From NCBI GenBank assembly GCA_016934575.1, contig JAFGSN010000106.1:1-41100 (forward strand): 41,100 nt of DNA, read 5' to 3'. Source of the stretch: Vicinamibacteria bacterium. Its GTDB lineage: Bacteria; Acidobacteriota; Vicinamibacteria; Fen-336. Both the position numbers and the translations under genes were made by a program. Each line of letters begins with the position of its first letter. Within the stretch, counting starts at the first letter, position 1. The notes beneath the pieces were generated by a model, which saw only the letters and a program-made list of their open reading frames with translations, was not told where the DNA came from and ran no database searches. Shown here in pieces: positions 26,623 through 41,100 of the stretch.

Positions 26623-27492
26623 ATGTCGATTACCGTTGAGAAACAAGCGGATTTGAAAGATCCTCAGGAAGCCCTTTACCGTCCGCTTCTGTGCAAGATG
26701 GTATCGGTCAAGGAATTGACGCCCACGGAAAAGCTCTTTCGTTTGGAGCGGCTCGACGGCCGGCCGTTCGGCCATCGGCCCGGCCAGTTCGTTCAGGTGT
26801 CTATTCCGGGGATCGGAGAAGCGCCGATTTCGGTTTCATCCTCGCCTTCTCGAGGTTCTTACCTGGAACTGGGAGTGCGCCGGACGGGCGTGCTGACCGG
26901 CGCGTTGCACGAAATGATCCAACCAGGCGACGTTATTGGTTTTCGGGGTCCTTTCGGCACTTACTTCGACGTAGACGCCATGAAGGGCAGGGACCTGATC
27001 TTGATTTCCGGCGGTTGCGGGCTGGCCCCGATGAGAGCCCTCATTCAGTATATCGAGGACCATCGCGATCAATACGGGAAAGTCACCATTCTCTACGGCG
27101 CCAAGTCGCCTATCGACATCCTTTACAAGGATGAGCTCGCCCAGTGGGTGACATCCACGCAACTGAATTGCCAGTACACGGTCGACGATGTCCCGGAGGG
27201 AACTTGCTGGGATGCCAACGTTGGCTTGATCACTCAGCTCATCCCCCCGCTGGACATCGACCCGGCGCGATCCCTGGCGGTGATCGTCGGGCCGCCGATC
27301 ATGTACAGATTCGTTCTTCAGGAGCTCAAAAAGAAGAACCTGCCCATCAACCAAATCATTGTTTCTCTGGAGCGTTACATGAAGTGCGGAGTCGGAAAAT
27401 GCGGCCACTGCACCATCGAGCACCTCTATTGCTGCATGGACGGCCCGGTCTTCTGGCTCAATGACGTCATCAACCTTGCGGGTGCGTTATGA
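26623..27492 (+). CDS. FAD/NAD(P)-binding [2Fe-2S] subunit of formate dehydrogenase (HydG/AsrB-like)
   Basis: The 289-residue protein belongs to the ferredoxin-reductase-like group that includes the sulfhydrogenase gamma subunit and AsrB. The FAD domain has HRPGQFVQVSIPG and APISVSSSP; the NAD(P) domain has LISGGCGLAPMRALI and a later VGPPIMYRFVLQEL. The C-terminus has C255, C260, C263 and C270/271 for a [2Fe-2S] cluster (CGVGKCGHC). It probably passes electrons from the Fe-S subunit to NAD(P)+. Its stop overlaps the next gene as ATGA. A run of G bases (TTGGGGGG) precedes the ATG as ribosome-binding site. Confidence 0.9.
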   Translation: MSITVEKQADLKDPQEALYRPLLCKMVSVKELTPTEKLFRLERLDGRPFGHRPGQFVQVSIPGIGEAPISVSSSPSRGSYLELGVRRTGVLTGALHEMIQPGDVIGFRGPFGTYFDVDAMKGRDLILISGGCGLAPMRALIQYIEDHRDQYGKVTILYGAKSPIDILYKDELAQWVTSTQLNCQYTVDDVPEGTCWDANVGLITQLIPPLDIDPARSLAVIVGPPIMYRFVLQELKKKNLPINQIIVSLERYMKCGVGKCGHCTIEHLYCCMDGPVFWLNDVINLAGAL

Positions 27493-29528
27493 AAAGAGTA
27501 TTGACGACCTGCACATACTGCGGCGTGGGCTGCGGTTTTTACTTGGTGTCAAACGACGAAGGCCAGCTTGTGGGCGTGGAGGCCAGCCGGGAGCATCCAG
27601 TCGCGCAAGGACAGCTTTGCGTCAAGGGGTGGAATGCCTTTCAATTCGTACAACATCCCGACCGTTTGAAGCAGCCCCTCATCCGGCGCAACGGGCAGTT
27701 GTCCCCGGCGTTCTGGGACGAGAGCATGAAGACGATCGCCGGGAGGCTGAAGGAAATCCAGCGGAAGCACGGCAACGACTCCATCGCGTTTTTCGCGTCG
27801 GCCAAGACCAGCAACGAGGAAAACTACCTCATGATGAAGCTCGCGCGGGCCGTGTTCAAGACCAACAACGTGGATCATTGCGCCCGCCTTTGTCATGCCT
27901 CCACGGTTGTGGGGCTCGCGCAGATGTTCGGGTCCGGGGCCATGACCAATTCCATTTCATGCGTCGAGCAGGCCGACTGTATTCTCGTCATCGGTTCGAA
28001 CACCACGGAACAGCATCCCCTTATCGGCAGCCGTATCGTGAAGGCCGTCAGAAAGGGCGCCAAGCTTATCGTGGCGGACAACCGGAAGATTCGGCTGGCC
28101 CGCCTGGCTGGCCTGCATATTCGGCACCGTAATGGCACGGATGTGGCCCTTTTGAATTCCATGATGAACGTTATCATTCGGGAAGGCCTGGAAAACAAGG
28201 AATTCATCGCGGACCGCACCGAGAAATACGAGGAGTTCAGGAAAGTCGTGGAGAAATATCCGCCGGAGAAAGGCGCGAGTATCTGCGGCGTCACGGCGGA
28301 GGAAATCGTCCAGGCGGCCCGCATTTACGCGCAGGCGAAAAACGCCATGATCGTCTATTCCATGGGAATCACCCAGCACACTCACGGCGTGGATAACGTG
28401 CGGTCCTGCGGCAATCTCGCGATGTTGACGGGCAACTACGGGCGGCCCGGCGTGGGCGTGAACCCCCTGCGGGGCCAGAATAACGTGCAAGGGGCCTGCG
28501 ACATGGGAGCGCTTCCCAACGTTTTTTCGGGATACCAGGCGGTCACGGATGCCGCCATCCGGCAGAAGTTCGAGAAAGCCTGGGGCGTGGAAGGCCTTCC
28601 GGACACGCCCGGCCTTGCCGTCACCACCGCCCTGGATGCCGCGGCCGAGGGCAAGCTCAAGGCCCTCTACATCATGGGCGAAAACCCGATGATGTCCGAC
28701 CCGGACCAAAACCACGTGCGCAAGGCTTTGGAGAATCTGGAGTTCCTGGCGGTTCAAGACATCTTCGAGACGCCCACGACGCAACTGGCTCACGTCGTCC
28801 TGCCGGCGACTTCCTGGGCCGAAAAGGACGGCACCTTCACCTCCACCGAAAGGCGCGTCCAGCGTATCCGCACGGCCATCGAGCCTGTGGGCGAAAGCCG
28901 GCCAGATTGGAGAATCCTCTGCGACGTGGCGATGCTGGCCGGCTATGGGGGGATGAAATACGACTCGCCCAAAGAGATTCTGGACGAGGTGGCTTCCGTG
29001 ACGCCAAGTTACGGCGGCATAACCTTCGAGCGGATCGGTCAGTTCGGCCTTCAGTGGCCCTGCCCGAACAAGGAACACGCCGGTACTCCGATCCTGCATG
29101 TTGGAAAATTCACGCGGGGAAAGGGGGTTTTCGCGGCCGTCGATTATAGGCCTTCGGTCGAGCTGCCGGACGACGAATATCCCTATGTTTTGTCGACAGG
29201 GCGGATTTACTTCCATTACCACACCGGCACCATGACGCGGCGTTCAAAGCTTCTCGATCGGGAAGAGCGCTTTCCATTCGTGGAGGTCAACGAGAACGAC
29301 GCCAGAAGGCTCAAGATACGGGACCGACAGTGGGTTTGTGTCTCAACGCGCCGAGGGGAAGTCAAGGCCCAGGCCCGAGTCGCCGACGTGGTGCCGCCGG
29401 GCGTTCTGTTCATGCCTTTCCATTTCGAAGAGGGCGCCGCCAATGTCTTGACCATCAACGCGCTGGACCCGGAGGCGAAGATTCCCGAGTTCAAGGTTTG
29501 CGCCGCCGCCATAAGGAGCACGCCATGA
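27489..29528 (+). CDS. fdhA: Formate dehydrogenase catalytic subunit (Mo/W-bis-MGD, cysteine type)
   Basis: The 679-residue protein has the N-terminal [4Fe-4S] motif C8, C11, C15, C44. The active-site pair is Cys135-His136 in ARLCHAS; the codon is TGT, so this is a cysteine and not a selenocysteine enzyme. Molybdopterin-domain features include VIGSNTTEQHPLIGSRI, GENPMMSDPDQNHV, and the C-terminal STGRIYFHYHTGTMTRRS cap. It has no Tat signal and no N-terminal [2Fe-2S] domain, so it should act in the cytoplasm. It would oxidise formate to CO2 (or reduce CO2) on a molybdenum or tungsten centre; the linked tungstate transporter favours tungsten. Confidence 0.93.
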   Translation: MKRVLTTCTYCGVGCGFYLVSNDEGQLVGVEASREHPVAQGQLCVKGWNAFQFVQHPDRLKQPLIRRNGQLSPAFWDESMKTIAGRLKEIQRKHGNDSIAFFASAKTSNEENYLMMKLARAVFKTNNVDHCARLCHASTVVGLAQMFGSGAMTNSISCVEQADCILVIGSNTTEQHPLIGSRIVKAVRKGAKLIVADNRKIRLARLAGLHIRHRNGTDVALLNSMMNVIIREGLENKEFIADRTEKYEEFRKVVEKYPPEKGASICGVTAEEIVQAARIYAQAKNAMIVYSMGITQHTHGVDNVRSCGNLAMLTGNYGRPGVGVNPLRGQNNVQGACDMGALPNVFSGYQAVTDAAIRQKFEKAWGVEGLPDTPGLAVTTALDAAAEGKLKALYIMGENPMMSDPDQNHVRKALENLEFLAVQDIFETPTTQLAHVVLPATSWAEKDGTFTSTERRVQRIRTAIEPVGESRPDWRILCDVAMLAGYGGMKYDSPKEILDEVASVTPSYGGITFERIGQFGLQWPCPNKEHAGTPILHVGKFTRGKGVFAAVDYRPSVELPDDEYPYVLSTGRIYFHYHTGTMTRRSKLLDREERFPFVEVNENDARRLKIRDRQWVCVSTRRGEVKAQARVADVVPPGVLFMPFHFEEGAANVLTINALDPEAKIPEFKVCAAAIRSTP

Positions 29529-30514
29529 AGGCATACGACGAGACGGATCTGGCTCTATCCTTCCAAGCTCTGGGCGCGGATTACGATGTACGGGTTCCCA
29601 TCCTTCTTTCTGACGGCACGCGGTCACTTGGCCGCTTGGAGGAGGGAAAGATGGCGCTCGCGGGCGGAAAACTGGGCGCCAAGCCCACCAGCGTTTTTTT
29701 CCCGCAGATGGACCTTGTCTTCCAGCAGAAGGGAACTAATGTCAGAATGCAGGCCCCTCCATCCAAGCCTCTGATGGTTGTGGGATTGACCGCTCAGGAC
29801 GCCGACTGCCTCGCGTTCCTGGATCGGTTTTTCAGCACGAACTTCAAGGACGACCTCTACCGGCAGAAACGCATGAATTCCGCGGTCGTCGTCTTGTCGG
29901 GAAAATGCGGCAGGGACGGAGAGATGTTGAGGCTCTCAAGCGGAAACTGCGACCTGGAACTCGTTTTCGACGGAGACCGTTACCTAGCCTTGGCGCACTC
30001 GCAAACCGGAAAAGCGATGGCCGAAAAAATGAAAGGCGGCTTGGAAACGGACGAGATCTCGCTGGGACGTCTTCAAAGGGAATCTAAAGCGCTTCCGGAC
30101 GACGAACTGAAGTTGCTCCAGAGAGCCTCATCTCTTCTATTGGACAACAAGGTTCCCGAGGACTTCTGGGTGGATATTTCCAACCGCTGCATCGCTTGCA
30201 CGGCCTGCAACCTGGCATGCCCCACCTGCAACTGTTTCGACGTGTTCGACTGGAAGTGCGGCGATTCCTGCGTCAACCGCTATCGTCTTTGGGATTCCTG
30301 CCAGTTGGACGGTTTCATGAGAGAGGCCAGCGGGCACAACCCGATGGGAACCGAGGCCCTTCGCACCCGGCGCCGCATTCACCACAAGTTGGCGGCTGAC
30401 GTGATTCGGTGGGGTCAGATGGGCTGTTTCCTTTGCGGGCGTTGCGACGAGGTTTGCCCCACGGGTATTGGCATCAAGGCGGTTTCTCGCGAGATGGTCG
30501 AGAAGTACGGATGA
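29525..30514 (+). CDS. [4Fe-4S] dicluster electron-transfer subunit (HydB/AsrA-like)
   Basis: The 329-residue protein starts in an ATGA overlap with fdhA. The first 210 residues form a domain without cluster ligands, as in the sulfhydrogenase beta subunit and AsrA. Two [4Fe-4S] motifs follow: C222, C225, C228, C232 (RCIACTACNLACPTC) and C301, C304, C307, C311 (GCFLCGRCDEVCP). Other cysteines at 235, 245, 249 and 259 are notable. It would wire the catalytic subunit to the flavin subunit. Its stop overlaps mobA as ATGA. Confidence 0.88.
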   Translation: MKAYDETDLALSFQALGADYDVRVPILLSDGTRSLGRLEEGKMALAGGKLGAKPTSVFFPQMDLVFQQKGTNVRMQAPPSKPLMVVGLTAQDADCLAFLDRFFSTNFKDDLYRQKRMNSAVVVLSGKCGRDGEMLRLSSGNCDLELVFDGDRYLALAHSQTGKAMAEKMKGGLETDEISLGRLQRESKALPDDELKLLQRASSLLLDNKVPEDFWVDISNRCIACTACNLACPTCNCFDVFDWKCGDSCVNRYRLWDSCQLDGFMREASGHNPMGTEALRTRRRIHHKLAADVIRWGQMGCFLCGRCDEVCPTGIGIKAVSREMVEKYG

Positions 30515-31137
30515 CGGACGCCTCCCCCCCGAGAAAAATTAAAGTCGGAGGGGCGATTCTGGCCGGCGGAAAATCCCTGCGCATGGGCGGAATACCCAAA
30601 GGTCTGCTGAAGGCGTCTCCCCAGGGCGAGACCATCATCGCCAGGCTTATTCGGGAGTTGAACGCTTGCGGGATCCACGACTTGATCATTTCCGCGAATG
30701 ATCCGGCGCCTTACCGGCCTTTCGGCCTTCCCATTCTTTCCGATTCAACGAAAGGAATGGGACCGCTGGGCGGCATTGCGGGGGCGCTTGAGTATTACCG
30801 GGAGAGATGCGAAGGCGTGCTTTTTGTTCCGTGTGATTTGCCCGGATTCACTTCGCGGGAAATGCATGCGTTGCTGGATGCGTTTATAATGGCCCCCGAG
30901 GGCCGGATCGTGGCCGCGAGAACCGGCCATTTTATTTGGCAACCGTTATGCGCAGTTGTGCATATCGCCGTGGAGCCGTTCCTTCAACTGGCGCTTCGTG
31001 AAGGAAGGACGGGCATTCACCGCTTGTGGGATGAACTTGAGGCCATAGCCGTGGATTTCAAGGAAGAGACGCCGTTCTTCAACGTCAACTCGCAAAGGGA
31101 TTGGGATCAATGGATAAAACGTCGTTTCACCGACTGA
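30511..31137 (+). CDS. mobA: Molybdenum cofactor guanylyltransferase
   Basis: The 208-residue protein begins in the ATGA overlap. It has the nucleotide-binding signature LAGGKSLRMGGIPKGLL (about residues 17-33), LPILSDSTKGMGPLGGIAGAL, FVPCDLPGF with the metal-binding Asp, and the C-terminal FFNVNSQRDW. It adds GMP to molybdopterin to make MGD, the dinucleotide form needed by the formate dehydrogenase encoded just upstream. Length and motifs are complete. The 3' end overlaps the next small gene by 28 bases. Confidence 0.95.
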   Translation: MTDASPPRKIKVGGAILAGGKSLRMGGIPKGLLKASPQGETIIARLIRELNACGIHDLIISANDPAPYRPFGLPILSDSTKGMGPLGGIAGALEYYRERCEGVLFVPCDLPGFTSREMHALLDAFIMAPEGRIVAARTGHFIWQPLCAVVHIAVEPFLQLALREGRTGIHRLWDELEAIAVDFKEETPFFNVNSQRDWDQWIKRRFTD

Positions 31138-31427
31138 CTGGCCCGACGTTGGGGGCGCCGGAAAGCTTGTTCGAAGGACTCCGTGATTTTGTGGCGACAC
31201 GGGGCCTGCGCCTTCAGGTTTCGCCGTCGCCGGATGCGACCGTCAAGGTGCTGGAATCGAGCGAAAGACTGGAGAGCGGCGGAAACGTTCTTCAGGCGGG
31301 CGGATGGATTTCCTGCGGAAACGCCCGTCGCCTGGCGGTCAATCTCGGCTTGACGCTTATGGAAACCGGCCGCCTGCTGAATTTCCTCAAAATCAAAGTT
31401 CGTCAATGCGAATTGGGGCTTTTCTAG
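31110..31427 (+). CDS. Small uncharacterised protein between mobA and the MobB-ModE fusion
   Basis: A 105-residue soluble protein, starting at the ATG at 31110 inside the end of mobA (a TTG three codons earlier is also possible). The N-terminal 60 residues look mixed alpha/beta. The C-terminal 40 residues, WISCGNARRLAVNLGLTLME followed by GRLLNFLKIKVRQCELGLF, look like a compact helix-turn-helix with cysteines at 69 and 100. I recall similar tails in small proteins encoded near molybdenum-enzyme genes, but cannot verify that. I assign no function; a DNA-binding or cofactor-handling role is possible. Tight packing within the operon supports that it is real. Confidence 0.7.
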   Translation: MDKTSFHRLTGPTLGAPESLFEGLRDFVATRGLRLQVSPSPDATVKVLESSERLESGGNVLQAGGWISCGNARRLAVNLGLTLMETGRLLNFLKIKVRQCELGLF

Positions 31428-32227
31428 TGGCGCTCATCTGGGTGATCGCCGGAACGGGACGAGGGGTTGGGAAAACCCATCTGGCGATGAAACTGCGCGA
31501 GGCGCTGCCGTTGAGCGTTTACGCGAAAGGCGGTCACGGAAGCATGAAGGCCGACCGTGATCCGCACTTTTTCAATTCGCCCGCGAAACTGGACGCCTTT
31601 GTCCGCCGGGAATCGGCCCGACACCAGCATGTGATTGTGGAGTCAAACGCTTGGGCGAAGGAGGCCCGGGGAACTCTCATTTTGTTCCTGGAAGCGACGG
31701 GTCATTCCGATCCACGGAAAGATGCGGCCGTCCTCAGGAGGAACGCCCATATCCGTGTTGGCCCACAGGGCTCGATCCGCGGCTGGTCGTCGGTTTTACG
31801 GCGTTCCTTGCCCGACCCGAAGCCGAGAAAAGCAGTCATGGACTTGCTGGTGGATCAAAAACGGCGCCTGTCCCAAGGCGGGCTGGCCGTGCGCACCAAG
31901 GTGTGGTTCGCGACCGGCGACCTGCATGTTTTTGGCAACGGCCTTGCGCGCTTGTTGAGTCTCGTGAAGGAGCATCGCAGCCTTCGCACGGCGGCGCAGA
32001 CCGCCGGCATGAGTTACCGCTATGCCTGGGACCGGATTAAAAAAGCCGAAAAGCACCTGGGGAAACGCATCTTGTCACTTCATCCAGGCGGGGTGGGCGG
32101 AGGCAATGCCGAGTTGACGGCGGACGGGCAAAATCTCCTGGAGGTTTACTTGAGAGTCAGTCGGGAAGTGGCCAGATTCGCGGACAGGCGGTTCGAAGCC
32201 GGATACAGACTCATTCATGCCAAATAA
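31427..32227 (+). CDS. MobB-like P-loop protein fused to a ModE DNA-binding domain
   Basis: From the GTG at 31427, which overlaps the previous stop (TAGTG), the protein has 266 residues; an ATG at 31406 is an alternative. Residues 1-150 carry a P-loop GTGRGVGKT (9-17) and fit a MobB-like GTP-binding domain, although the sequence is divergent (VESNAWAKEA, LFLEATG). Residues about 160-245 match the winged helix of ModE: LRTAAQTAGMSYRYAWDRIK, then HPGGVGGGNAELTADG. The ModE molybdate-binding (Mop) domain is missing. MobB assists MGD synthesis; ModE represses or activates molybdenum genes. A single chain with both would link cofactor handling to gene control. Confidence 0.82.
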   Translation: MALIWVIAGTGRGVGKTHLAMKLREALPLSVYAKGGHGSMKADRDPHFFNSPAKLDAFVRRESARHQHVIVESNAWAKEARGTLILFLEATGHSDPRKDAAVLRRNAHIRVGPQGSIRGWSSVLRRSLPDPKPRKAVMDLLVDQKRRLSQGGLAVRTKVWFATGDLHVFGNGLARLLSLVKEHRSLRTAAQTAGMSYRYAWDRIKKAEKHLGKRILSLHPGGVGGGNAELTADGQNLLEVYLRVSREVARFADRRFEAGYRLIHAK

Positions 32228-32236
32228 GGATAAACG

Positions 32237-33451
32237 GTGAGCCGAGAAATTGAAATGACGCCGCTGGAAGAGGCGTTCGGCATCATGGGATCGGTTCTCC
32301 GAGACCTCCCTTCGAGCAAGGAGGAACTGCCTGTTCGGGAGGCCGTGGGACGGGTGTTGGCCGGCGATCAGCGCTCTTGTTTAGATCTGCCGCCTTTCCA
32401 CAAGTCCGCGGTGGACGGCTATGCGCTTATGAAAGGGAAGGCCGTCGACGGGTATGCCGTGACGGGCGTTGTTTTTGCCGGAGAATCCGGAGCCCAACCG
32501 CTTCTACCGGGAACCGCCGTCAAGGTAATGACTGGTTGTGTCCTGCCCGAGGGAACGGACCGCGTGGTCATGGTCGAATACGTCCGGGAAGAGGCCGGCC
32601 ATATTCGGCTCGTGAAACCGTTGGAGAGCGGCGCCAATATCTGCCGGCAAGCCGAAGATGTCAAGCGGGGGGACCTTCTGATGCGCGAAGGCGCTCGGTT
32701 GAGGCCTCTGGATGTTGCCGTGCTCCTGGCCTGCGGAGCCACCCGCGTGCAAGTGAAAAAGCCCATCCGCATGGTCGTCCTAGCAACCGGAGATGAGATC
32801 GTAGACGATCCGGAAAAAATCCGGCCGGGCAAGATCATCAATTCAAACGGCCCTCTGCTGGAAGCTCTGGCGCGGGAGGCCCATCTGGAGGTTCTTCCGG
32901 GCGGTATCGTGCCGGATGAGCGGGACCGATTGCGACAGGTCATTCAGGGCGCCCTGGAATCAGCCGAGATGATCGTGCTTTCAGGCGGAGTTTCCGTGGG
33001 CGACAAGGATTTCGTGCCGTCCACGCTGAAGGAAATGGGGCTCACCATTCATTTTTCCAAACTGGCGGTGAAGCCGGGCAAGCCCACCTTGTTCGCTTCC
33101 ACGCCCTCCCGGGTCGCTTTCGGCCTGCCGGGTAATCCGGTTTCGGCTTACTTGATGTTCCATTTGATCATTCGACATGCGCTTTTGATCCTCGAAGGTG
33201 CCACTCCGCGTGCCCGCCGGCTTTTCTTGCCGCTGGAAAACGAGTTCGTCCGCAGGCATGCGGAGCGCCTCGAGTTTGTGCCGGCGCGGTTGACGGGAAA
33301 GGGCGCGCTGGAAGCAGTCCCTTACAATGGCTCCGCTCACCTCTGCGCCGTCATTCCGGCGGATGGCTTTTTCATCGTTCCCTTGGGACAAACCAGACTT
33401 TTGGCCGGGGCGCAAACAGAGTTTTTTCCCGTCCCGGGATGGTCGCTATGA
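32237..33451 (+). CDS. moeA: Molybdopterin molybdenumtransferase
   Basis: The 404-residue protein starts at a GTG after AAGGA. It has the family motifs LPPFHKSAVDGYALM near residue 50, the MGCVLPEGTD-like stretch VMTGCVLPEGTDRVVMVE, the domain with VLATGDEIV, SGGVSVGDKDF, and AVKPGKPTLFAS followed by AFGLPGNPVSAYLMF. The C-terminal beta domain is present. MoeA inserts molybdate or tungstate into adenylated molybdopterin, the step after MogA; a MogA domain is encoded downstream in the same block. It ends in an ATGA overlap with moaA. Confidence 0.95.
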   Translation: MSREIEMTPLEEAFGIMGSVLRDLPSSKEELPVREAVGRVLAGDQRSCLDLPPFHKSAVDGYALMKGKAVDGYAVTGVVFAGESGAQPLLPGTAVKVMTGCVLPEGTDRVVMVEYVREEAGHIRLVKPLESGANICRQAEDVKRGDLLMREGARLRPLDVAVLLACGATRVQVKKPIRMVVLATGDEIVDDPEKIRPGKIINSNGPLLEALAREAHLEVLPGGIVPDERDRLRQVIQGALESAEMIVLSGGVSVGDKDFVPSTLKEMGLTIHFSKLAVKPGKPTLFASTPSRVAFGLPGNPVSAYLMFHLIIRHALLILEGATPRARRLFLPLENEFVRRHAERLEFVPARLTGKGALEAVPYNGSAHLCAVIPADGFFIVPLGQTRLLAGAQTEFFPVPGWSL

Positions 33452-34248
33452 AGGATTCCTTCGGCCGCAGCATCGATTACCTGCGGGTCTCGATCACTGA
33501 CCGCTGCAACCTGAGATGTCGTTACTGCCTGCCGGATGGAAAGGCGCGCCTCGTTCCCCGTCGGAATATCCTCACCTTCGAGGAAATCACGGAAGTCGTC
33601 AAGGCGGCCGCGGGAATGGGTTTCACGAAGGTACGCCTGACCGGAGGCGAGCCGCTGGTGCGAAGGAACGCCGTGACCCTGGTGCGGATGATCGCGGCGA
33701 TCCCGGGAATTCAGGATCTCGCCATGAGCACGAATGGAACCCTCCTCGCCGAGCACGCTGGCGCGCTGGCCGCCGCTGGTTTGATGCGAGTCAATGTCAG
33801 CTTGGATTCGGTGGATGCGGAGCGTTTTCGGCTGATTACCGGGGGAGGAGATGTGCAAGCGGTCATGCGGGGCATTTCGGCGGCCTCGAAAGCGGGGCTA
33901 ACGCCCATCAAGCTCAATTGCGTGATTCCGGCGTCATCCGATTCGGCGGACGCAAAGGCAGTCGCGGCGTTTGCCCAAGAAAACGGTTATTCCGTTCGGT
34001 TCATTCCCGAGATGGACCAGACCAAAGGAACCTTCGGCGTGGTTGAAGGCGGAAGCGGGGGAGATTGTCTGCGGTGCAGCCGACTTCGGCTTTCATGCGT
34101 CGGGGACATCCGGCCGTGCCTGTTTTCCGAACTAGCGTTCAACGTACGCGACCTGGGAGTGGAAGAGGCCCTTCGTCTTGCGGTGAAGAAAAAGCCGGAA
34201 AGCGGAGAGAAATGTTTCAGGCACGATATCCGCGGCATCGGAGGTTGA
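33448..34248 (+). CDS. moaA: Compact GTP 3',8-cyclase (MoaA)
   Basis: Starting in the ATGA overlap, the protein has 266 residues; typical MoaA has about 320-340. The radical-SAM cluster motif is C20-x3-C24-x2-C27 (DRCNLRCRYC). TGGEPLVRRN and MSTNGTLL are present. The second cluster ligands are C207, C210 and C224 (CLRCSRLRL...RPCLF), and the C-terminal double glycine (RGIGG) is kept. The missing stretch lies between RFIPEMDQ (184-191) and the second cluster. MoaA with MoaC converts GTP to cyclic pyranopterin monophosphate, the first step of cofactor synthesis. All catalytic residues I can check are intact. Confidence 0.9.
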   Translation: MKDSFGRSIDYLRVSITDRCNLRCRYCLPDGKARLVPRRNILTFEEITEVVKAAAGMGFTKVRLTGGEPLVRRNAVTLVRMIAAIPGIQDLAMSTNGTLLAEHAGALAAAGLMRVNVSLDSVDAERFRLITGGGDVQAVMRGISAASKAGLTPIKLNCVIPASSDSADAKAVAAFAQENGYSVRFIPEMDQTKGTFGVVEGGSGGDCLRCSRLRLSCVGDIRPCLFSELAFNVRDLGVEEALRLAVKKKPESGEKCFRHDIRGIGG

Positions 34249-34249
34249 C

Positions 34250-34708
34250 ATGGGACGTTTGTCGCACGTGGACGGACGCGGGAAGGCGCGCATGGTGGAC
34301 GTGGGCGACAAGAAGCCGCAGTTGAGGATCGCCAAGGCGGCGGGAAAGATCACCCTCTCGAAAGAGGCCCTGCGGCAAATTCGAAGAGCGGTCAATCGGA
34401 AGGGCGACGTGTTGTCGACGGCCCAGATCGCGGGCATCCAGGCGGCCAAGAAGACGGCAGAGCTGATCCCGCTTTGCCACACTCTTTTGCTGGACTGCGT
34501 GAAAGTGGAGATGAAGATCGGACGAGACGCGGTGGCGGCTGAAAGTGAAGTGCGTTCGCACGGACGCACGGGAGCGGAGATGGAGGCTTTGACCGCCGTC
34601 GTGGCGGCCCTCCTGACGGTTTATGACATGTGCAAGGCCGTGGACAAGGGCATGCGCATCCATGGCGTGCGCCTGGTTGAGAAAGAGAAACATGACATCA
34701 ATGGATGA
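34250..34708 (+). CDS. moaC: Cyclic pyranopterin monophosphate synthase
   Basis: The 152-residue protein has the normal MoaC length. Motifs include MVDVGDKKPQLRIAKAAGKI, AQIAGIQAAKKTAELIPLCH with the active-site His and following LLLDCVKVEM, and TGAEMEALTAVVAALLTVYDMCKAVDKGM. It completes the conversion of the MoaA product to cPMP. GGAGG lies five bases before the ATG. The end overlaps the MOSC-MogA gene. Confidence 0.96.
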   Translation: MGRLSHVDGRGKARMVDVGDKKPQLRIAKAAGKITLSKEALRQIRRAVNRKGDVLSTAQIAGIQAAKKTAELIPLCHTLLLDCVKVEMKIGRDAVAAESEVRSHGRTGAEMEALTAVVAALLTVYDMCKAVDKGMRIHGVRLVEKEKHDING

Positions 34709-35657
34709 GGTGCTTTCCGTCAACATCTCGGCGAAAAAGGGCGAGCCGAAAAAACCTGTGCCGGAGATCCGGTTGGATTCAAAGGGCATCGTCGGCGACG
34801 CCCACGCGGGTGAGTGGCACCGCCAGGTCAGCCTGTTAAGCCGGGAAAGCATTGATCGGTTTTCCGGGATTCTGGGACGGCCGATCGCGCCGGGGGAATT
34901 TGCGGAAAACGTGACCTTGAAGAATACGAATGCGCTTCAAGTCGCTCTTCTGGATCGTTTCCTCATCCAGGGGGCGGTGCTGGAGGTCACGCAAATCGGC
35001 AAGGAATGCCACGGCCACGCCTGTTCCATTTTCCGAGAGATCGGGAAGTGTGTCATGCCCAAGGAAGGCCTGTTCACGCGCGTCGTGAAGGGAGGCGAAG
35101 TCCGGCCGGGCGATCCGGTCGCCTATGCGCCGAAAACGCTGCGGATTCGGATCGTCACGCTCTCCGACCGGGCGGCGGCCGGGGCCTATCCGGATTACAG
35201 CGGGCCGCGTCTCAGCGAGCTTTTCCAGGAATCCACCGGGAGATTCCGCTGGCCGCTGGAGATGCAATACGTCCTCCTGTCGGATGACGCCGAAGGCCTT
35301 CGCCGGGAGTTGGCGGCGGCAAAACAGGCGGAATTGGATGCGGTTTTCACGATCGGCGGGACGGGCGTGGGGCCGCGCGATATGGCGCCCGAAACGGTTT
35401 CCGCCTTTTGCGACAAGCTCATCCCTGGAATCATGGAATCGATACGGGCGAAATTCGGCGCCGGCAATCCATGCGCACTACTGAGCCGCAGTGTCGCCGG
35501 TCTGGCGGGCACAACCCTGGTCTATACGTTGCCGGGCAGCGTGCGCGCGGCCGGCGAATACCTGGGAGAAATCCTGACCACGCTCGATCACTTGATTCTG
35601 ATGGTTCATGGTTTGGACGCTCACCGCAGGAGTGGCGAGGCGAGTCATGGCGCATGA
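34692..35657 (+). CDS. MOSC domain fused to a MogA-type molybdopterin adenylyltransferase
   Basis: The 321-residue protein starts at the ATG at 34692 (a second in-frame ATG is at 34701). Residues 1-150 form a MOSC domain: GIVGDAHAGEWHRQVSLLS, then VTLKNTN and IGKECHGHACSIFREIGKCV with conserved cysteines, as in proteins that move sulfur or bind cofactor. Residues about 155-310 form a MoeA/MogA-like domain: RIVTLSDRAAAGAYPDYSG, FTIGGTGVGPRDMAPETV and LSRSVAGLAGTTLVYTLPGS. MogA adenylates molybdopterin before metal insertion by MoeA. The fusion is recorded in several anaerobic bacteria as far as I recall. It completes the middle of the pathway. Confidence 0.9.
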   Translation: MTSMDEVLSVNISAKKGEPKKPVPEIRLDSKGIVGDAHAGEWHRQVSLLSRESIDRFSGILGRPIAPGEFAENVTLKNTNALQVALLDRFLIQGAVLEVTQIGKECHGHACSIFREIGKCVMPKEGLFTRVVKGGEVRPGDPVAYAPKTLRIRIVTLSDRAAAGAYPDYSGPRLSELFQESTGRFRWPLEMQYVLLSDDAEGLRRELAAAKQAELDAVFTIGGTGVGPRDMAPETVSAFCDKLIPGIMESIRAKFGAGNPCALLSRSVAGLAGTTLVYTLPGSVRAAGEYLGEILTTLDHLILMVHGLDAHRRSGEASHGA

Positions 35658-36477
35658 CGACATCAAACCATGGAGAAAAGACGCTGGATTCCGGGCTGTC
35701 CGTCCCTGGCGGATCGCGGCTGAGGGAAAGAGCCCCTATGAGGACCCATCCAGTGTGGCGGAGGAAGCCATGGTCACGCTCCGCCTGGAGCCGATCGGCG
35801 ATTTTACGGTTCTTTGCACGCCCACGGACTTGCCGCCGCTTGCGGCGGGATACGCCTACACGGAAGGTCTGGTTTCCAGGGAAGGGGGATGGACGGATTT
35901 TGCCGTGGATCAAACCGGCCCTTGGTCCTGGTTGGTGCGGGCGGAAATGGTCCGCCCGTTGGGTGCATCCGGCGGGCGTGATCGTATCATCACGCGCGCC
36001 CGCGGCGATCGGAACCTGGAAGGCTTGCTCTCTCGGGAAAGATTGAAGGAAACATTGCGTATATCGGCGGCCCAGTTGTGCGGCATTTCGGAAACCATGC
36101 GGTCCAGTCAAGAGGTTTTTCAAGCGACCGGGGGCGTCCATGCGGCGGCCGTTTTCGACGCGAGCGGGAAGGTCCTGTCGTTTGCCGAAGATGTCGGGAG
36201 GCATAACGCGCTCGACAAGGCCCTCGGCAAGTGCCTCCTTGAAGGAAGCTTCCCGACCTGTTGCGGCGCCATGATGTCGGGGCGCCTGAGTTACGACCTG
36301 ACGGCCAAGGCCGTTCACGCGGGCCTCGAGGTGCTAGCTGGCGTATCGGCGCCGACAATGCTGGCGGTCGAAGTCGCCGAACATCTCAATATGACCTTGT
36401 GCGGTTTCGTTCGTGAGGGTCGCATGACGGTTTATGCCGCCCCCCGGAGGATAACTGAAATGAAAGGCGCGGAATGA
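35647..36477 (+). CDS. fdhD: Formate dehydrogenase accessory protein FdhD, lacking the usual CxxC
   Basis: The 276-residue protein overlaps the previous gene by 11 bases; GAGG lies six bases before the ATG. The FdhD hallmarks are present: SVAEEAMVTLRLE near residue 36, LAAGYAYTEGLV, GGVHAAAVFD, EDVGRHNALDKALGK (181-195), MSGRLSYDLTAKA and AGVSAPTMLAVEVAE. FdhD passes sulfur from a cysteine desulfurase to the MGD cofactor of formate dehydrogenase. In E. coli a CGxCG loop does this. At the matching place (about residues 114-122) this protein reads IITRARGDR with no cysteine; cysteines at 145, 205 and 206 are elsewhere. It ends in an ATGA overlap with tupA. Confidence 0.9.
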   Translation: MAHDDIKPWRKDAGFRAVRPWRIAAEGKSPYEDPSSVAEEAMVTLRLEPIGDFTVLCTPTDLPPLAAGYAYTEGLVSREGGWTDFAVDQTGPWSWLVRAEMVRPLGASGGRDRIITRARGDRNLEGLLSRERLKETLRISAAQLCGISETMRSSQEVFQATGGVHAAAVFDASGKVLSFAEDVGRHNALDKALGKCLLEGSFPTCCGAMMSGRLSYDLTAKAVHAGLEVLAGVSAPTMLAVEVAEHLNMTLCGFVREGRMTVYAAPRRITEMKGAE

Positions 36478-37289
36478 AACGACGAGTCCTCGGGCTTTTG
36501 GGATCGGCGATCTGGCTTCTGTCGATTTCCGGACCGGCATGCAAGAAGGAAACCGCCATCAAGCTCGCCACGACGACGAGCACGGACAATTCCGGCCTTT
36601 TGGACGTCCTGCTTCCCGCATTCACGAAGGAAAGCGGCATCCAGGTACATGTGATCGCGGTGGGAACGGGAAAGGCGCTTAAGCACGGAGAGAACGGTGA
36701 CGTCGACGTCGTTCTCGTGCACGCACGCGCGGCCGAGGAGCGGTTCGTCCAGGACGGCTTCGGCGTGAATCGCCGGGACGTCATGTACAACGATTTCGTC
36801 ATCCTGGGGCCGAGGGATGATCCCGCCGGCGTGGGCGGAATGAAAGAAGCGCGGAAAGCCATGGCGAAGATCGCCGAGTCGACGGCCTATTTCGTTTCCC
36901 GTGGCGACGACTCCGGCACGCACGAGAAGGAAAAGGAACTTTGGAAAGCCGCGAAAGTAAAACCCTCGGGAAAGTGGCACCTGTCGGTGGGCCAGGGCAT
37001 GGGCGTTTGCCTGACCGTCGCCGATGAGAAGCAAGGATATGTCCTCGCCGATCGCGGCACATATCTCGCGTACAGGGAAGCGATCGATCTTTCGATACTC
37101 GTGGAAGGCGACCCGGCTCTGTTCAACCCTTACGGCGTGATCGCGGTGAATCCCGCGAAGCATCCTCATGTCAAGCACGCCGAGGCCATGAAGCTCATCG
37201 AGTGGCTGTGCTCGCCCGCGGGGCAGGAAATTATCGCGGGCTTTGAAAAAAACGGCGGAAAACTGTTTCACCCGGCCGCCGGCCGGTAG
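36474..37289 (+). CDS. tupA: Tungstate-binding protein of an ABC transporter
   Basis: The 271-residue protein has a signal sequence (RVLGLLGSAIWLLSIS) with a cysteine at about residue 23, so it may be a lipoprotein. The mature start IKLATTTSTDNSGLLDVLLP and the later YNDFVILGPRDDPAG, FVSRGDDSGTHEKEKELW and RGTYLAYR are characteristic of TupA, which binds tungstate with very high affinity and much more weakly molybdate. It would deliver tungstate to TupB/TupC encoded next. Gene context with formate dehydrogenase supports supply of tungsten to that enzyme. Confidence 0.95.
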   Translation: MKRRVLGLLGSAIWLLSISGPACKKETAIKLATTTSTDNSGLLDVLLPAFTKESGIQVHVIAVGTGKALKHGENGDVDVVLVHARAAEERFVQDGFGVNRRDVMYNDFVILGPRDDPAGVGGMKEARKAMAKIAESTAYFVSRGDDSGTHEKEKELWKAAKVKPSGKWHLSVGQGMGVCLTVADEKQGYVLADRGTYLAYREAIDLSILVEGDPALFNPYGVIAVNPAKHPHVKHAEAMKLIEWLCSPAGQEIIAGFEKNGGKLFHPAAGR

Positions 37290-37294
37290 CCATC

Positions 37295-38005
37295 ATGGAC
37301 GACTCGATTCTCCTCGGCGGTGCGGCGCACGCGTTCCGGTTGATCGCGTCGGGCGACGCGCGCGTATACGAGGCGGCTTTCACGTCGATATGGATCTCCT
37401 GCACGGCGACGGCGTTCGCTTCGGCCATCGGCCTTCCGCTCGGGTTCTTCACGGCCATCGGGCGTTTCAAAGGACGAGTGTTGCTTGTCGCGATACTAAA
37501 CACTCTTCTCGCCTTGCCCACGGTGATCGTGGGTTTGTTTGTGTACGCGCTGATACGTCGGGTATCGCTGCTCGGGCCGCTGGATCTGCTTTTTTCGCCC
37601 GGCGCCATGATCGTGGGACAGACGTTCCTGGCGATTCCCATCGTGGCGGCTCTTTGTCTGACGGCGATCGAGACGCTGGATCCGGCGGCGCGTGAGACAG
37701 CTTTTACACTGGGCGCGTCGCGCAAGCGCTTGCTTCTGACTGTCGCGTGGGAGGCGAGGCACGGGCTGCTCGTGGCTGTGGCGGTGGCCGGAGGACGGCT
37801 GATCGGAGAAGTGGGCGTCTCCATGATGCTGGGTGGGAACATCACGCATTACACTCGAACCCTCACCACCGCCATTGCGCTGGAAACATCGAAAGGCGAA
37901 TTCGCGGTGGCCATGGCCATGGGTCTGATATTGCTTGCCCTGGCTCTCGGCTTGAACCTTCTCCTGCGATGGATTCAGGGCATGAGGGGAGGGCGGCTTG
38001 GATAA
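37295..38005 (+). CDS. tupB: Tungstate ABC transporter permease
   Basis: The 236-residue membrane protein has about five to six hydrophobic segments and an ABC inner-membrane component loop (ETAFTLGASRKRLLLTVAWE, about residues 133-152) that docks with the ATPase. The sequence AFTSIWISCTATAFASAIGLPLG and FLAIPIVAALCLTAI fits TupB. It follows tupA by five bases and overlaps tupC by eight. Confidence 0.94.
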   Translation: MDDSILLGGAAHAFRLIASGDARVYEAAFTSIWISCTATAFASAIGLPLGFFTAIGRFKGRVLLVAILNTLLALPTVIVGLFVYALIRRVSLLGPLDLLFSPGAMIVGQTFLAIPIVAALCLTAIETLDPAARETAFTLGASRKRLLLTVAWEARHGLLVAVAVAGGRLIGEVGVSMMLGGNITHYTRTLTTAIALETSKGEFAVAMAMGLILLALALGLNLLLRWIQGMRGGRLG

Positions 38006-39056
38006 AGCAGCCCCCAATACGCCCGCCGTCAGTGTCACGGGATTGACCAAGGTTTACGGCAACGTGACGGCTCTCTGCATTGAGCGCGTCCAGTTCGACG
38101 CCGGATGCGTGCATGCGATCGTCGGCCCCAATGGCGCCGGGAAGACGACGCTTTTCAGGCTGATCGCAGGTCTCGAGCCATCCGACCAAGGCGATCTTCG
38201 CGTGCTGGGGGGCAAGATTCACGGGCGGTCCGGTGAAGAGCATCTGAGTTTGAGGAGGCGCATCGGTTTTGCAGCGCAACGGCCCTACCTCTTCAGCGCG
38301 AGCGCACGCTGGAACGTGGAGTATCCCCTGCGCGTCCGTGGAATTACCCGCGCGGAATCGGAGAACAGGGCGCGCGCGGCCATGGCCAGGCTCGGCGTCG
38401 CCCATCTGGCCGCACGGAAGACCGGAACGCTTTCCGCGGGCGAGAGACAGCGGATTTCCATCGCGAGGGCCATCGTCACCGAACCGGAATTGCTGCTCGT
38501 GGACGAGCCTTTCGCCAACCTGGACCCGGAGGGCGTGCCGATCCTGGAAAGCACGCTTCTGGATCTTGTTTCTTCCGGAACCACGATCCTGGTCGCGACG
38601 CACCTCACGGACCGGGCTTATCGACTTTCAACCCGGATTCTCCGCCTGGAAGGGGGGCGCCCGGCGCCTCCCGCAGTCGTGAACATTCTGGAAGGCGAGG
38701 TCGTTTCAACGAACTCGGGCCCCATGCTCGTGCTCGAAGGCGGCACGCGGATCCACGTGGCGACGGATCGAATCGGACGAAGGAGAGCGTCGATTTTCCC
38801 GGAAGATGTGATCGTCTCCGCCCGGCCGTTTGATTCGAGCGCACGCAACATCCTGAGGGGACGCATAACGGCGCTTCAGGAGCGGGGAAGCACGGTTTTC
38901 GCCACCGTGGACGCTGGCGTCTCGCTCACGGCCGCCGTGACGCCGGAATCCTGCCGGAGGCTTGCTTTGACAGTCGGCTCCAACGTCGTGCTCACTTTCA
39001 AGGCCGCCGCCGTCAAGCTTTTCTACAAAGCAGGTAGCGTGTCCGAAAAGCACTAA
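37998..39056 (+). CDS. tupC: Tungstate ABC transporter ATP-binding protein with C-terminal MOP/TOBE region
   Basis: The TTG at 37998 is chosen because GGAGG lies five bases upstream. The 352-residue protein has Walker A GPNGAGKTT, Q-loop GFAAQRPYLF, signature LSAGERQRIS, Walker B LLLVDEPF and the switch-region histidine in VATHL. The last 115 residues (about 235-350) form a TOBE/MOP-like domain, with ARNILRGRITALQERGSTVF and a VVLTFKAAAVKLF end, where molybdate or tungstate can bind and inhibit transport in ModC-type ATPases. Some TupC proteins lack such a tail. It powers uptake through TupB. Confidence 0.92.
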   Translation: MDKAAPNTPAVSVTGLTKVYGNVTALCIERVQFDAGCVHAIVGPNGAGKTTLFRLIAGLEPSDQGDLRVLGGKIHGRSGEEHLSLRRRIGFAAQRPYLFSASARWNVEYPLRVRGITRAESENRARAAMARLGVAHLAARKTGTLSAGERQRISIARAIVTEPELLLVDEPFANLDPEGVPILESTLLDLVSSGTTILVATHLTDRAYRLSTRILRLEGGRPAPPAVVNILEGEVVSTNSGPMLVLEGGTRIHVATDRIGRRRASIFPEDVIVSARPFDSSARNILRGRITALQERGSTVFATVDAGVSLTAAVTPESCRRLALTVGSNVVLTFKAAAVKLFYKAGSVSEKH

Positions 39057-39076: not shown

Positions 39077-41062
39077 ATGCACAACCGCATTCTCACGCCG
39101 CATATCCACGCGATCTTTTCCCGATTACGAAATGGAGGTCTTCATAAAAAAGGAATTCTCTTGACGCTGTCCCTGTGCCTGTCACTGATCGGATCCTTTT
39201 CCACGGCCGAGGAAGCGCAGGTGGAGAAACAAGAGAAGGGCAAGAGCATAACGTTGCCCATGATCACCGAATCGGTGACCGTCGAGGCCAAGGTCCCTCG
39301 GGATCTGCCATACTCCGCAACATCGGAGTTGAAATCCGAGCGAATTGAACCGCTCAAGCCCAAGGACCTGACCGACATCCTCTCCAACGTTCCGGGAACT
39401 TACGTTTCCACCGGCGCCAAGAACGAATGGGGCGTCAAGCTGCGCGGCCTGGGCACAAACCGCATCACCCTGCTTTACGACGGCATCCCGGTATACGAGC
39501 CCTACTACAACTCCTTCGACGTCAAGGCATTCGCCGCCGACCAGATCGACTCGGTCAAGGTGGTCAAGGGCGCCTCGTCGGTGCTTTACGGCCCCAACGC
39601 CATGGGCGGCGTCGTTGACGTGCTCAGCAAGCGGCCGGCGACCGATCAGCTCACTCTGCGTCTGGACTACGGCACGCGCCGGACCTACGGCGCCTACGCC
39701 GGCGGCGCCCTGAGCGGCCGCAACGTCCTGTTCATCGGCTCGGCCCTTCGCGAGGCCTCCAACGGTTACAACTGGTTGAACGACGGAAACACCGAGCAGC
39801 GGCTGAACAGCGATTATGAGCGGATCAGCCCGAGCGGCAAGATTTACTTTAATCCAGGGAACGGCGCCGAGGTCATGGCCGAGGTCAACTTCTACAAGGC
39901 CGAGTACGGCGTCCCCACGGCCACCGAATATTACAGGAAGAACTACTGGCGCTTCAGGGACTGGCGGCGCCTCATGGCCAACCTGGGCGGCAGCTTCCCC
40001 GTTCTGGACGGCGGTTACATCAAAGCGCGCACGTACTATGTCAAGCACTACAACGTTCTGGACGCTTACAAGGACGATCAATTCGCCGACCTCAACTGGG
40101 AGTCGACTTACGACAACTACGCCCTGGGCGCGTTCGTCCTGGGCATGGCGCCGCTGAGTGAAAGACACCATCTGCACGCCAGCGCCTCTTATCGCGACGA
40201 CGACGTCAGCACCCAGTCCGCCGTCAACGCGCACTGGGAGCACTACGAGCACAAGACTCTTTCGCTTGGTTTGGAGGATCGGTTCCGTCTCATCGAGAAG
40301 ATCGAGCTCATGGCCGGGACCAATCTCGACCACCTGAATAAACAGAACGGCGAGAACCGGACCACCCTGAACCCGATTCTGGGAGTGAAATACAATCCCC
40401 GCGAATGGGTCGATCTACACCTGACCCTGTCTCAGAAATCGCGCTTCCCCTCGATGAAGAACCTCTACAGCCTTCCTGAAAACGGCGGTAATCCCGACTT
40501 GCGCGAAGAGATCGGCACCAACGTCGAGATCGGCTTCACCTTTGATCGCGGCTGGTTCGTCAGCGGCGCCGCCTTCCATAACCGTATTCGCGACATGATA
40601 GAAAGCCGCATCAACGCCGACTTCATCAAGCAGAACATCAACGTGGCCCGGGCCCGGATTACGGGCGTCGAGCTGGAGACGCGCAAGGCCATCGGTCCTT
40701 TTTCCTTCGCGGCCAGCTATACATGGCTCGACACGCGCAACGACGAGACCGACGAGCGGCTCGACCTCGTCCCGGCTTCGCAACTGAACGCCTCGCTGCG
40801 TTTCGATCGCGCGTCCCTGTTTTCGATCACCCTGTGGGGCGTTTACGCTTCCGAATCCAGCTACCATTCCAATAGCGGCATCGTCGACGTCGCCCCTTAT
40901 TCCATCCTCAACACCGTTTTCGAGCGCGGATTCGGGAAAACCAGCGTTTTCTTGAAGGTGGAGAACCTGCTGAACAACGAATACTGGACGGAGCCCGGCT
41001 GGCCGATGAAAGCCCGCACCGTCTCCACCGGGATGCGCTTCTTCATGGAAGGTAGAAAGTAA
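39077..41062 (+). CDS. TonB-dependent outer-membrane receptor linked to the tungstate genes
   Basis: The 661-residue protein has a signal peptide (about residues 25-45, GILLTLSLCLSLIGSFSTA), a TonB-box-like ESVTVEA, and the plug domain: LTDILSNVPGTYVSTGAKNE, RITLLYDGIPVYEP and VVKGASSVLYGPNAMGGVVDV. The barrel of beta strands ends in the aromatic TGMRFFMEGRK. It would move a ligand across the outer membrane using the proton gradient. It starts 20 bases after tupC, so tungstate or molybdate, perhaps chelated, is a possible ligand; this is inference from position. BtuB-like or siderophore receptors are the main alternatives. Confidence 0.88.
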   Translation: MHNRILTPHIHAIFSRLRNGGLHKKGILLTLSLCLSLIGSFSTAEEAQVEKQEKGKSITLPMITESVTVEAKVPRDLPYSATSELKSERIEPLKPKDLTDILSNVPGTYVSTGAKNEWGVKLRGLGTNRITLLYDGIPVYEPYYNSFDVKAFAADQIDSVKVVKGASSVLYGPNAMGGVVDVLSKRPATDQLTLRLDYGTRRTYGAYAGGALSGRNVLFIGSALREASNGYNWLNDGNTEQRLNSDYERISPSGKIYFNPGNGAEVMAEVNFYKAEYGVPTATEYYRKNYWRFRDWRRLMANLGGSFPVLDGGYIKARTYYVKHYNVLDAYKDDQFADLNWESTYDNYALGAFVLGMAPLSERHHLHASASYRDDDVSTQSAVNAHWEHYEHKTLSLGLEDRFRLIEKIELMAGTNLDHLNKQNGENRTTLNPILGVKYNPREWVDLHLTLSQKSRFPSMKNLYSLPENGGNPDLREEIGTNVEIGFTFDRGWFVSGAAFHNRIRDMIESRINADFIKQNINVARARITGVELETRKAIGPFSFAASYTWLDTRNDETDERLDLVPASQLNASLRFDRASLFSITLWGVYASESSYHSNSGIVDVAPYSILNTVFERGFGKTSVFLKVENLLNNEYWTEPGWPMKARTVSTGMRFFMEGRK

Positions 41063-41070
41063 GGCGCCCG

Positions 41071-41100
41071 ATGAATCTTAACCAATTGTATATCCCGGTC
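41071..41100 (+). CDS. Start of the next gene in the block (cut by window edge)
   Basis: An ATG nine bases after the receptor stop codon is preceded by AAGG with six bases between. Ten codons (MNLNQLYIPV) are visible before the window ends. The product cannot be identified; the spacing suggests it continues the same operon. Confidence 0.5.
   Translation, partial: MNLNQLYIPV

Follow-up and report, generated by a model that had tools for sequence, protein, structure and literature searches.

A TonB-dependent receptor family of Acidobacteriota as a candidate outer-membrane transporter for tungsten

Porins are usually assumed to be the means by which tungstate and molybdate pass through the outer membrane. 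The 41,100-nucleotide stretch of Vicinamibacteria DNA analyzed herein (the window) raises the question of whether tungsten may have a dedicated outer-membrane receptor, for it carries a TonB-dependent receptor gene directly behind the genes of a tungstate-type ABC transporter. The receptor is judged, at a probability of roughly three in four, to be a TonB-energized outer-membrane transporter dedicated to tungsten, taken up either as tungstate or as a complex yielding periplasmic tungstate. The ligand, the direction of transport, the repression, the periplasmic hand-over, and the metal specificity are what we infer, with tungsten being likely over molybdenum as the receptor's metal.

The receptor gene and the run that contains it

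The receptor stands last in a co-directional series ordered as formate dehydrogenase subunits, mobA, a ModE-domain protein, moeA, moaA, moaC, MOSC-moaB, fdhD, tupA, tupB, tupC, and receptor. The features are as follows.

26623-30514, + strand: formate dehydrogenase genes (three subunits)
26623-27492, + strand: formate dehydrogenase FAD/NAD subunit
27489-29528, + strand: formate dehydrogenase catalytic subunit (TIGR01591, 893 bits, above cut-off)
29330-30514, + strand: formate dehydrogenase Fe-S subunit
30409-31137, + strand: mobA-like nucleotidyltransferase
31427-32227, + strand: 266-residue protein with a C-terminal ModE-type helix-turn-helix
32237-33451, + strand: moeA
33439-34248, + strand: moaA
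34250-34708, + strand: moaC
34623-35657, + strand: MOSC domain fused to a MoaB/Mog-like domain
35608-36477, + strand: fdhD, formate dehydrogenase sulfurtransferase (TIGR00129, above cut-off)
36474-37289, + strand: tupA-like binding protein (TupA model, E 1.4e-71; 241 bits against a cut-off of 400)
37295-38005, + strand: tupB-like permease (TupB, best equivalog, E 1.3e-56; 192 bits against a cut-off of 320)
37998-39056 (stop included), + strand: tupC-like ABC ATPase with a TOBE domain (best model WtpC, 175 of 440 bits)
39077-41062, + strand: TonB-dependent receptor, 661 aa, with an ATG start, signal region, TonB-box-like segment, plug, and beta-barrel
39077-39148, + strand: region matching a leader ORF of relatives, in frame in the window and giving a 24-residue N-terminal extension
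41071-41100, + strand: cut-off ORF, probably CcsA-like

The interval 39077-41062 is a real gene encoding a complete TonB-dependent receptor and no chance ORF, because residues 75-179 match the Pfam Plug domain PF07715 (E 1.6e-22; 80.5 bits against a cut-off of 23.9) and residues 221-631 match TonB_dep_Rec_b-barrel PF00593 (E 3.7e-35; 123.1 bits against a cut-off of 27). A putative TonB-box-like segment (ESVTVEA, residues 65-71), recognized by eye against the consensus, has one variable residue among seven close sequences, and ExbD is matched three times in the host genome. The preliminary description of this DNA had set the receptor 20 bp behind tupC and ahead of another ORF. The gap is as described, with tupC ending at 39056 and the receptor ATG at 39077; the following ORF is just visible, an ATG at 41071 opening ten codons (MNLNQLYIPV) before the contig stops at 41100, 38 bp past the receptor. 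By eye, these ten residues resemble the beginning of a CcsA-like gene that occupies this position in two related loci, L002 and L003 (MPALGTLYLPA...). AlphaFold2 modeling of the receptor from seven sequences gave a mean pLDDT of 30.0.

The name tupABC is right as a best match, with TupA and TupB both scoring under their NCBIfam curated cut-offs. As the TupB cut-off is passed in none of 396 genomes of the phylum, it looks strict for this Acidobacteriota sample. TupA is the sole NCBIfam model matched by the product of 36474-37289, in which a TTTS motif and an Arg-x5-Thr motif (SRGDDSGT) are present, the equivalence of the residues being judged from their spacing; TTTS and Arg/Thr oxyanion residues are described for tungstate binding by TupA in the available part of PMC5517513. 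Elsewhere in the run, a sub-threshold SECIS_3 match (27888-27946; 28 of 63 bits, E 0.012) lies inside the gene for the formate dehydrogenase catalytic subunit, whose reading frame is uninterrupted by any stop, and the N-terminal part of the 31427-32227 protein has a P-loop-like start by eye and no Pfam match.

A receptor family behind Moco/Tuco riboswitches

A scan of genome contigs returned six close relatives of the receptor (L002-L007; 72-78% identity), all in Aminicenantes/Acidobacteria MAGs, while viral contigs gave no relative and plasmids gave generic receptors of less than 60% identity, none of them closer. In the phylum sample of 396 genomes, a family threshold of E 1e-40 yielded 34 rows in 31 genomes; G322 and G385 each have a gene taken to be divided between two contigs, which leaves 32 genes, and the 5' end of the G132 gene lies off its contig, which leaves 31 genes with checkable upstream DNA. 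The genome-contig loci and the phylum-sample genes overlap, L002 being a contig of G226 and L007 a contig of G418. A tree was built from 32 family rows (the fragment row L017 being left out), six E. coli receptors (BtuB, FepA, CirA, FhuA, FecA, and PqqU), and 19 other receptors of the phylum. The phylogeny with characterized receptors that the preliminary description had proposed as a check sets the family apart from cobalamin and siderophore receptors: 31 of the 32 family rows, the window protein included, form a clade of their own (SH-aLRT 97), distinct from all six E. coli receptors in a tree whose deep outgroup branches are without resolution. The remaining row, G368, qualifies for the family by its E-value but branches beside two class receptors, away from the clade; it has no riboswitch and was kept in the denominators. 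Three lysines (K115, K422, and K454) are invariant in 31 family rows and missing from 24 other receptors, and would be candidates for a predicted anion site.

The family is also marked by what precedes its genes. In 25 of the 34 rows, equal to 25 of the 31 checkable genes, the receptor match has ahead of it, on the same strand and at -7 to +184 nt, Rfam's molybdenum/tungsten-cofactor (Moco/Tuco) riboswitch RF01055; the riboswitch is likewise present in all six of L002-L007, at least two of which are contigs already among the 25. The receptor-linked aptamers score at or above the Rfam gathering threshold, and the link is common to several families of the phylum. A control was drawn from the 24 genomes with both receptor and RF01055, for which the matches listed hold 150 PF00593 rows (25 family and 125 other): none of the 125 others among the matches listed lies behind RF01055, a barrel being counted if it falls up to 3.5 kb downstream of one of the 42 riboswitches that these genomes contain. 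The six checkable genes without RF01055 are those of the window (G000), G246, G202, G120, G144, and G368. RF01055 is missing from the window genome. An Rfam scan of the window operon that admitted weak scores detected no riboswitch, and a pattern search for the aptamer core gave four matches, no more than chance, with as many in 12 of 100 shuffles.

The class of these aptamers bears on the metal. In the available part of Regulski 2008 (PMC2408646), P3-lacking aptamers go with tungsten-cofactor genes and sensing of the tungsten cofactor is proposed; the rule rests on correlation. P3 is absent in nine of ten receptor-linked aptamers aligned (L051 has a stem there), and 24 of the 25 receptor-linked aptamers measure 118-129 nt, the length expected without P3, the remaining one measuring 157 nt. 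In the phylum sample, 78 RF01055 were found, the nearest assigned downstream gene being the receptor in 25, MoaA in 14, TupA in 12, WtpA in 6, MoeA in 6, an aldehyde dehydrogenase in 5, a PF01497 binding protein in 3, MoaC in 2, and the secreted protein c1 (see below) and a distant c1 relative in 1 each, with no gene assigned in 3. The TupA/WtpA-linked aptamers are short in 18 of 18, and one RF01055-linked WtpA passes the NCBIfam WtpA cut-off. Longer aptamers make up 12 of the 16 linked to MoaA/MoaC versus 1 of the 25 linked to the receptor (Fisher P 3e-6, uncorrected for kinship); four of the 14 MoaA-linked aptamers are also short, and the four short MoaA/MoaC-linked ones include two, of 113 and 116 nt, that are possibly incomplete.

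How the window came to differ from its relatives can be read from a DNA alignment with the six, in which homology begins at the ATG behind the ribosome-binding site of the aptamer; upstream of this shared ATG, the position taken by the aptamer in the relatives is taken in the window by the end of tupC. The alignment is read most simply as a loss of the riboswitch by the receptor gene upon its placement behind tupABC. In five of the six relatives, the shared ATG opens a leader ORF of 25-26 codons that ends at the receptor start codon and may couple translation to the riboswitch, whereas in L005 and the window that ATG shares the receptor's reading frame. The leader ORFs start at L002:9957, L003:4315, L004:9951, L006:9452, and L007:9939. 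As the same receptor stands next to tupABC or behind the riboswitch, two different arrangements tie it to tungsten supply.

Contamination was considered as a source of the contig and rejected: its AspRS is 69-74% identical to those of nine same-family genomes and 66% to that of one genome of the same order, as opposed to 46-53% for f40, the group holding the closest receptors. The window receptor is 78% identical to f40 receptors, and 13 same-family genomes gave no receptor match better than E 1.2e-13. Because the receptor thus follows f40 and has no close match in those kin while AspRS follows its own family, the gene was probably acquired by transfer, or else lost in all sampled kin.

Tungsten and the competing ligands

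Genomes with the receptor keep characteristic company. Genes for tungsten-type aldehyde oxidoreductase (AOR, PF01314) are present in 30 of 31 genomes with the receptor, compared with 98 of 365 without it (P 3e-15). For TupB at E 1e-40, the corresponding figures are 16 of 31 and 51 of 365 (P 3e-6). These Fisher values overstate significance because the receptor genomes are related rather than independent; the TupB figures support the co-occurrence with tup genes that had been suggested as a check. One or the other is present in 31 of 31 receptor genomes. TupB is absent at E 1e-40 from 15 of the 31, three of which hold a riboswitch-linked TupA. With RF01055 before 25 of the 31 checkable homologues, the adjacency to tupC, and the AOR/Tup company, the original proposal of a receptor for tungstate or a metal chelate is supported. 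Points against tungsten are that the window genome is without RF01055 and AOR and that six of 31 checkable homologues are without the riboswitch; furthermore, Mo and W systems share genes.

As a tungsten transporter, the receptor would bind tungstate, bare or complexed, outside the cell, and TonB/ExbBD would open the plug and permit import of the ligand to the periplasm. In the window, TupA would capture the periplasmic tungstate, a task that in relatives would fall to binding proteins of the WtpA-like or PF01497 type; the tungstate would then be pumped inward to furnish the tungsten cofactor of formate dehydrogenase (window) or of aldehyde:ferredoxin oxidoreductase (most relatives). In most relatives, plentiful cofactor would act through the short, P3-lacking aptamer beside the ribosome-binding site to shut the receptor gene; in the window, where the riboswitch is gone, the receptor gene would be tied to the tup genes instead.

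Among the alternatives, the one retaining the greatest weight is a sub-case of the tungsten transporter, in which the receptor takes up a W- or Mo-loaded catecholate-like metallophore rather than the bare oxyanion, and it is best regarded as a tentative option that falls short of even odds. Of solved receptors, the catecholate receptor CirA is closest by profile, and in three genomes without TupB at E 1e-40 (G233, G336, and G385) an RF01055 precedes a PF01497 binding protein, with a FecCD permease and an ABC ATPase in the one scanned. PF01497/FecCD transporters usually serve chelates, and these sets behind RF01055 thus leave room for a chelate. On the other hand, a look around the receptor, which was unsystematic, noticed no metallophore synthesis genes, and TupA binds free tungstate, so that a ligand has to reach it in that form. 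The affinity of TupA-type proteins for free tungstate is picomolar according to the available part of PMC5517513, which suggests free tungstate as the periplasmic form. That molybdate or a molybdenum complex is the true ligand, with tungsten incidental, is unlikely: RF01055 covers both cofactors, the window operon contains moa/moe genes, and 14 MoaA-linked RF01055 occur in the same phylum, yet the receptor aptamers are short in 24 of 25, like those of TupA/WtpA and unlike the majority at MoaA/MoaC, AOR is found in all but one receptor genome, and the neighbors of the receptor are tup rather than mod genes.

It is highly improbable that this is a receptor for cobalamin, heme, or a siderophore whose association with tungsten genes is incidental. 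The highest NCBIfam scores do belong to the heme (TIGR01785, 131.2 bits), siderophore (TIGR01783, 113.8 bits), and vitamin B12 (TIGR01779, 101.5 bits) receptor models, and CcsA/ResB-like heme-handling genes follow the receptor in some relatives; nevertheless, these scores lie well under the curated cut-offs (316.85, 223.5, and 599.7 bits, respectively), as does that of the copper receptor model TIGR01778 (35.1 against 472.45 bits), and the Mo/W riboswitch link is direct and found across families of the phylum. A B12-riboswitch-controlled homologue, which the preliminary description had named as evidence to the contrary, was sought: neither the window nor any of the 35 homologue loci scanned yielded a cobalamin riboswitch. 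Import of molybdopterin, a precursor, or ready-made Mo/W cofactor appears just as remote a prospect. Control of the receptor gene by a cofactor riboswitch would suit such an importer, as would a secreted protein family faintly like molybdopterin-binding oxidoreductases (c1), which follows the receptor in at least 13 loci; against this, the window operon has its own moa/moe genes, as do loci behind other switches, the adjacency to tup points to an oxyanion, and the free cofactor is labile to oxygen, and its scavenging is not known to occur.

Relation to known systems and further neighbors

Like BtuB, CirA, FepA, CntO, and CrtA, the window receptor combines a plug, a barrel, and a putative TonB-box-like segment, and some known TonB receptors are riboswitch- or metal-regulated, as is predicted for most of this family; BtuB behind a cobalamin riboswitch and a molybdate transporter behind a separate riboswitch are described in the available part of PMC5317091. 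Unlike those five, the family forms a clade of its own, with the window protein scoring under all curated receptor cut-offs, and its genes stand behind a riboswitch for Mo/W cofactor or, in the window, next to tupABC. The inner-membrane systems TupABC and WtpABC share its regulon (short RF01055) and, in the window, its gene run; they cross the inner membrane, whereas the receptor would cross the outer one. The P3-lacking variant of the RF01055 riboswitch of Regulski 2008 matches the receptor-linked aptamers, although here, unlike in the available part of PMC2408646, an outer-membrane gene is a main target. Word searches found neither 'TonB' nor 'outer membrane' in the available text of that paper, and neither term appears in the accessible portion of a 2013 regulon survey (PMC3766115); likewise, 'molybd' and 'tungst' were absent, by word search, from the text available for a 2024 review of TonB-dependent substrates (PMC11658791).

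The nearest earlier hint in the open-licence PMC literature, as far as the accessible texts extend, is the 2012 genome paper on Pelobacter carbinolicus (PMC3543383), whose available part notes ligand-gated channels near molybdopterin-binding proteins or cobalamin/molybdopterin riboswitches and states that these channels may transport metals. It amounts to one sentence on one genome, with no claim for tungstate, no family, and no aptamer class in the accessible text, and the likeness is one of description. An outer-membrane step for a group-6 oxyanion has also been proposed in Pseudomonas aeruginosa, where the molybdate route described in the available part of PMC8602904 (ModA-IcmP) comprises T6SS-secreted ModA and a metalloprotease, with no TonB-dependent receptor. 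If the receptor is indeed a tungsten transporter, tungsten would join the metals actively imported by Gram-negative bacteria, the life of tungsten-dependent anaerobes at very low tungstate would be explained in part, and a marker of tungsten-based metabolism in uncultured Acidobacteriota and Aminicenantes would be at hand. The targets of the Moco/Tuco riboswitch are extended to the outer membrane, and the question of 'porin or pump?' for tungstate is made directly testable.

Further genes recur around the receptor, their counts being lower bounds where gene calls are rough and long spurious ORFs arise in G+C-rich DNA. A molbindin-type TOBE protein (~70 aa) lies just upstream of the receptor in all six of L002-L007, where it is preceded in each case by a PF03547 (auxin-efflux-type) permease, and a secreted protein and/or CcsA/ResB-like genes come after the receptor in four of the six. 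Other loci have AOR within ~8 kb of the receptor (two confirmed by domain scan), as well as MobB-like, MoaD-like, and ThiF-like genes over the same distance, recognized by eye from translations.

The secreted family c1 (~340 aa) is encoded directly after the receptor or a few genes further along in at least 13 of 32 loci, examples being L004:11945-12904 and L007:11948-12958 along with 11 further loci. A YedY/sulfite-oxidase-like identity, considered for c1 by eye, received little support, and c1 is left unassigned: hhalign against E. coli MsrP gave 5% probability, PF00174 was matched in 1 of 13 members (E 0.0016), and neither a solved relative nor an invariant cysteine was found among them. 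AlphaFold2 on three c1 sequences gave a mean pLDDT of 32.4. The L061 member has a CxxCH motif, with a CcsA-like gene between c1 and the receptor, and in G131 (L109) a c1 homologue is itself directly preceded by an RF01055 aptamer. Cluster c11, a family of small membrane proteins with multiple spans and no convincing Pfam match, is next to the receptor or one gene off in L071, L077, L078, L079, L083, and L084.

In G233, G336, and G385, the extra RF01055 measures 137-149 nt and stands directly before the PF01497 gene. At L126:223-3099 (G233:C108), the FecCD permease and ATPase come after the PF01497 protein, a set that could possibly be a MolABC-like importer of Mo/W or a chelate, to go by its domains; PF01497 matches also occur in L129 and L140. 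The aldehyde dehydrogenase genes behind short RF01055 are found in five genomes (L113, L114, L121, L136, and L137).
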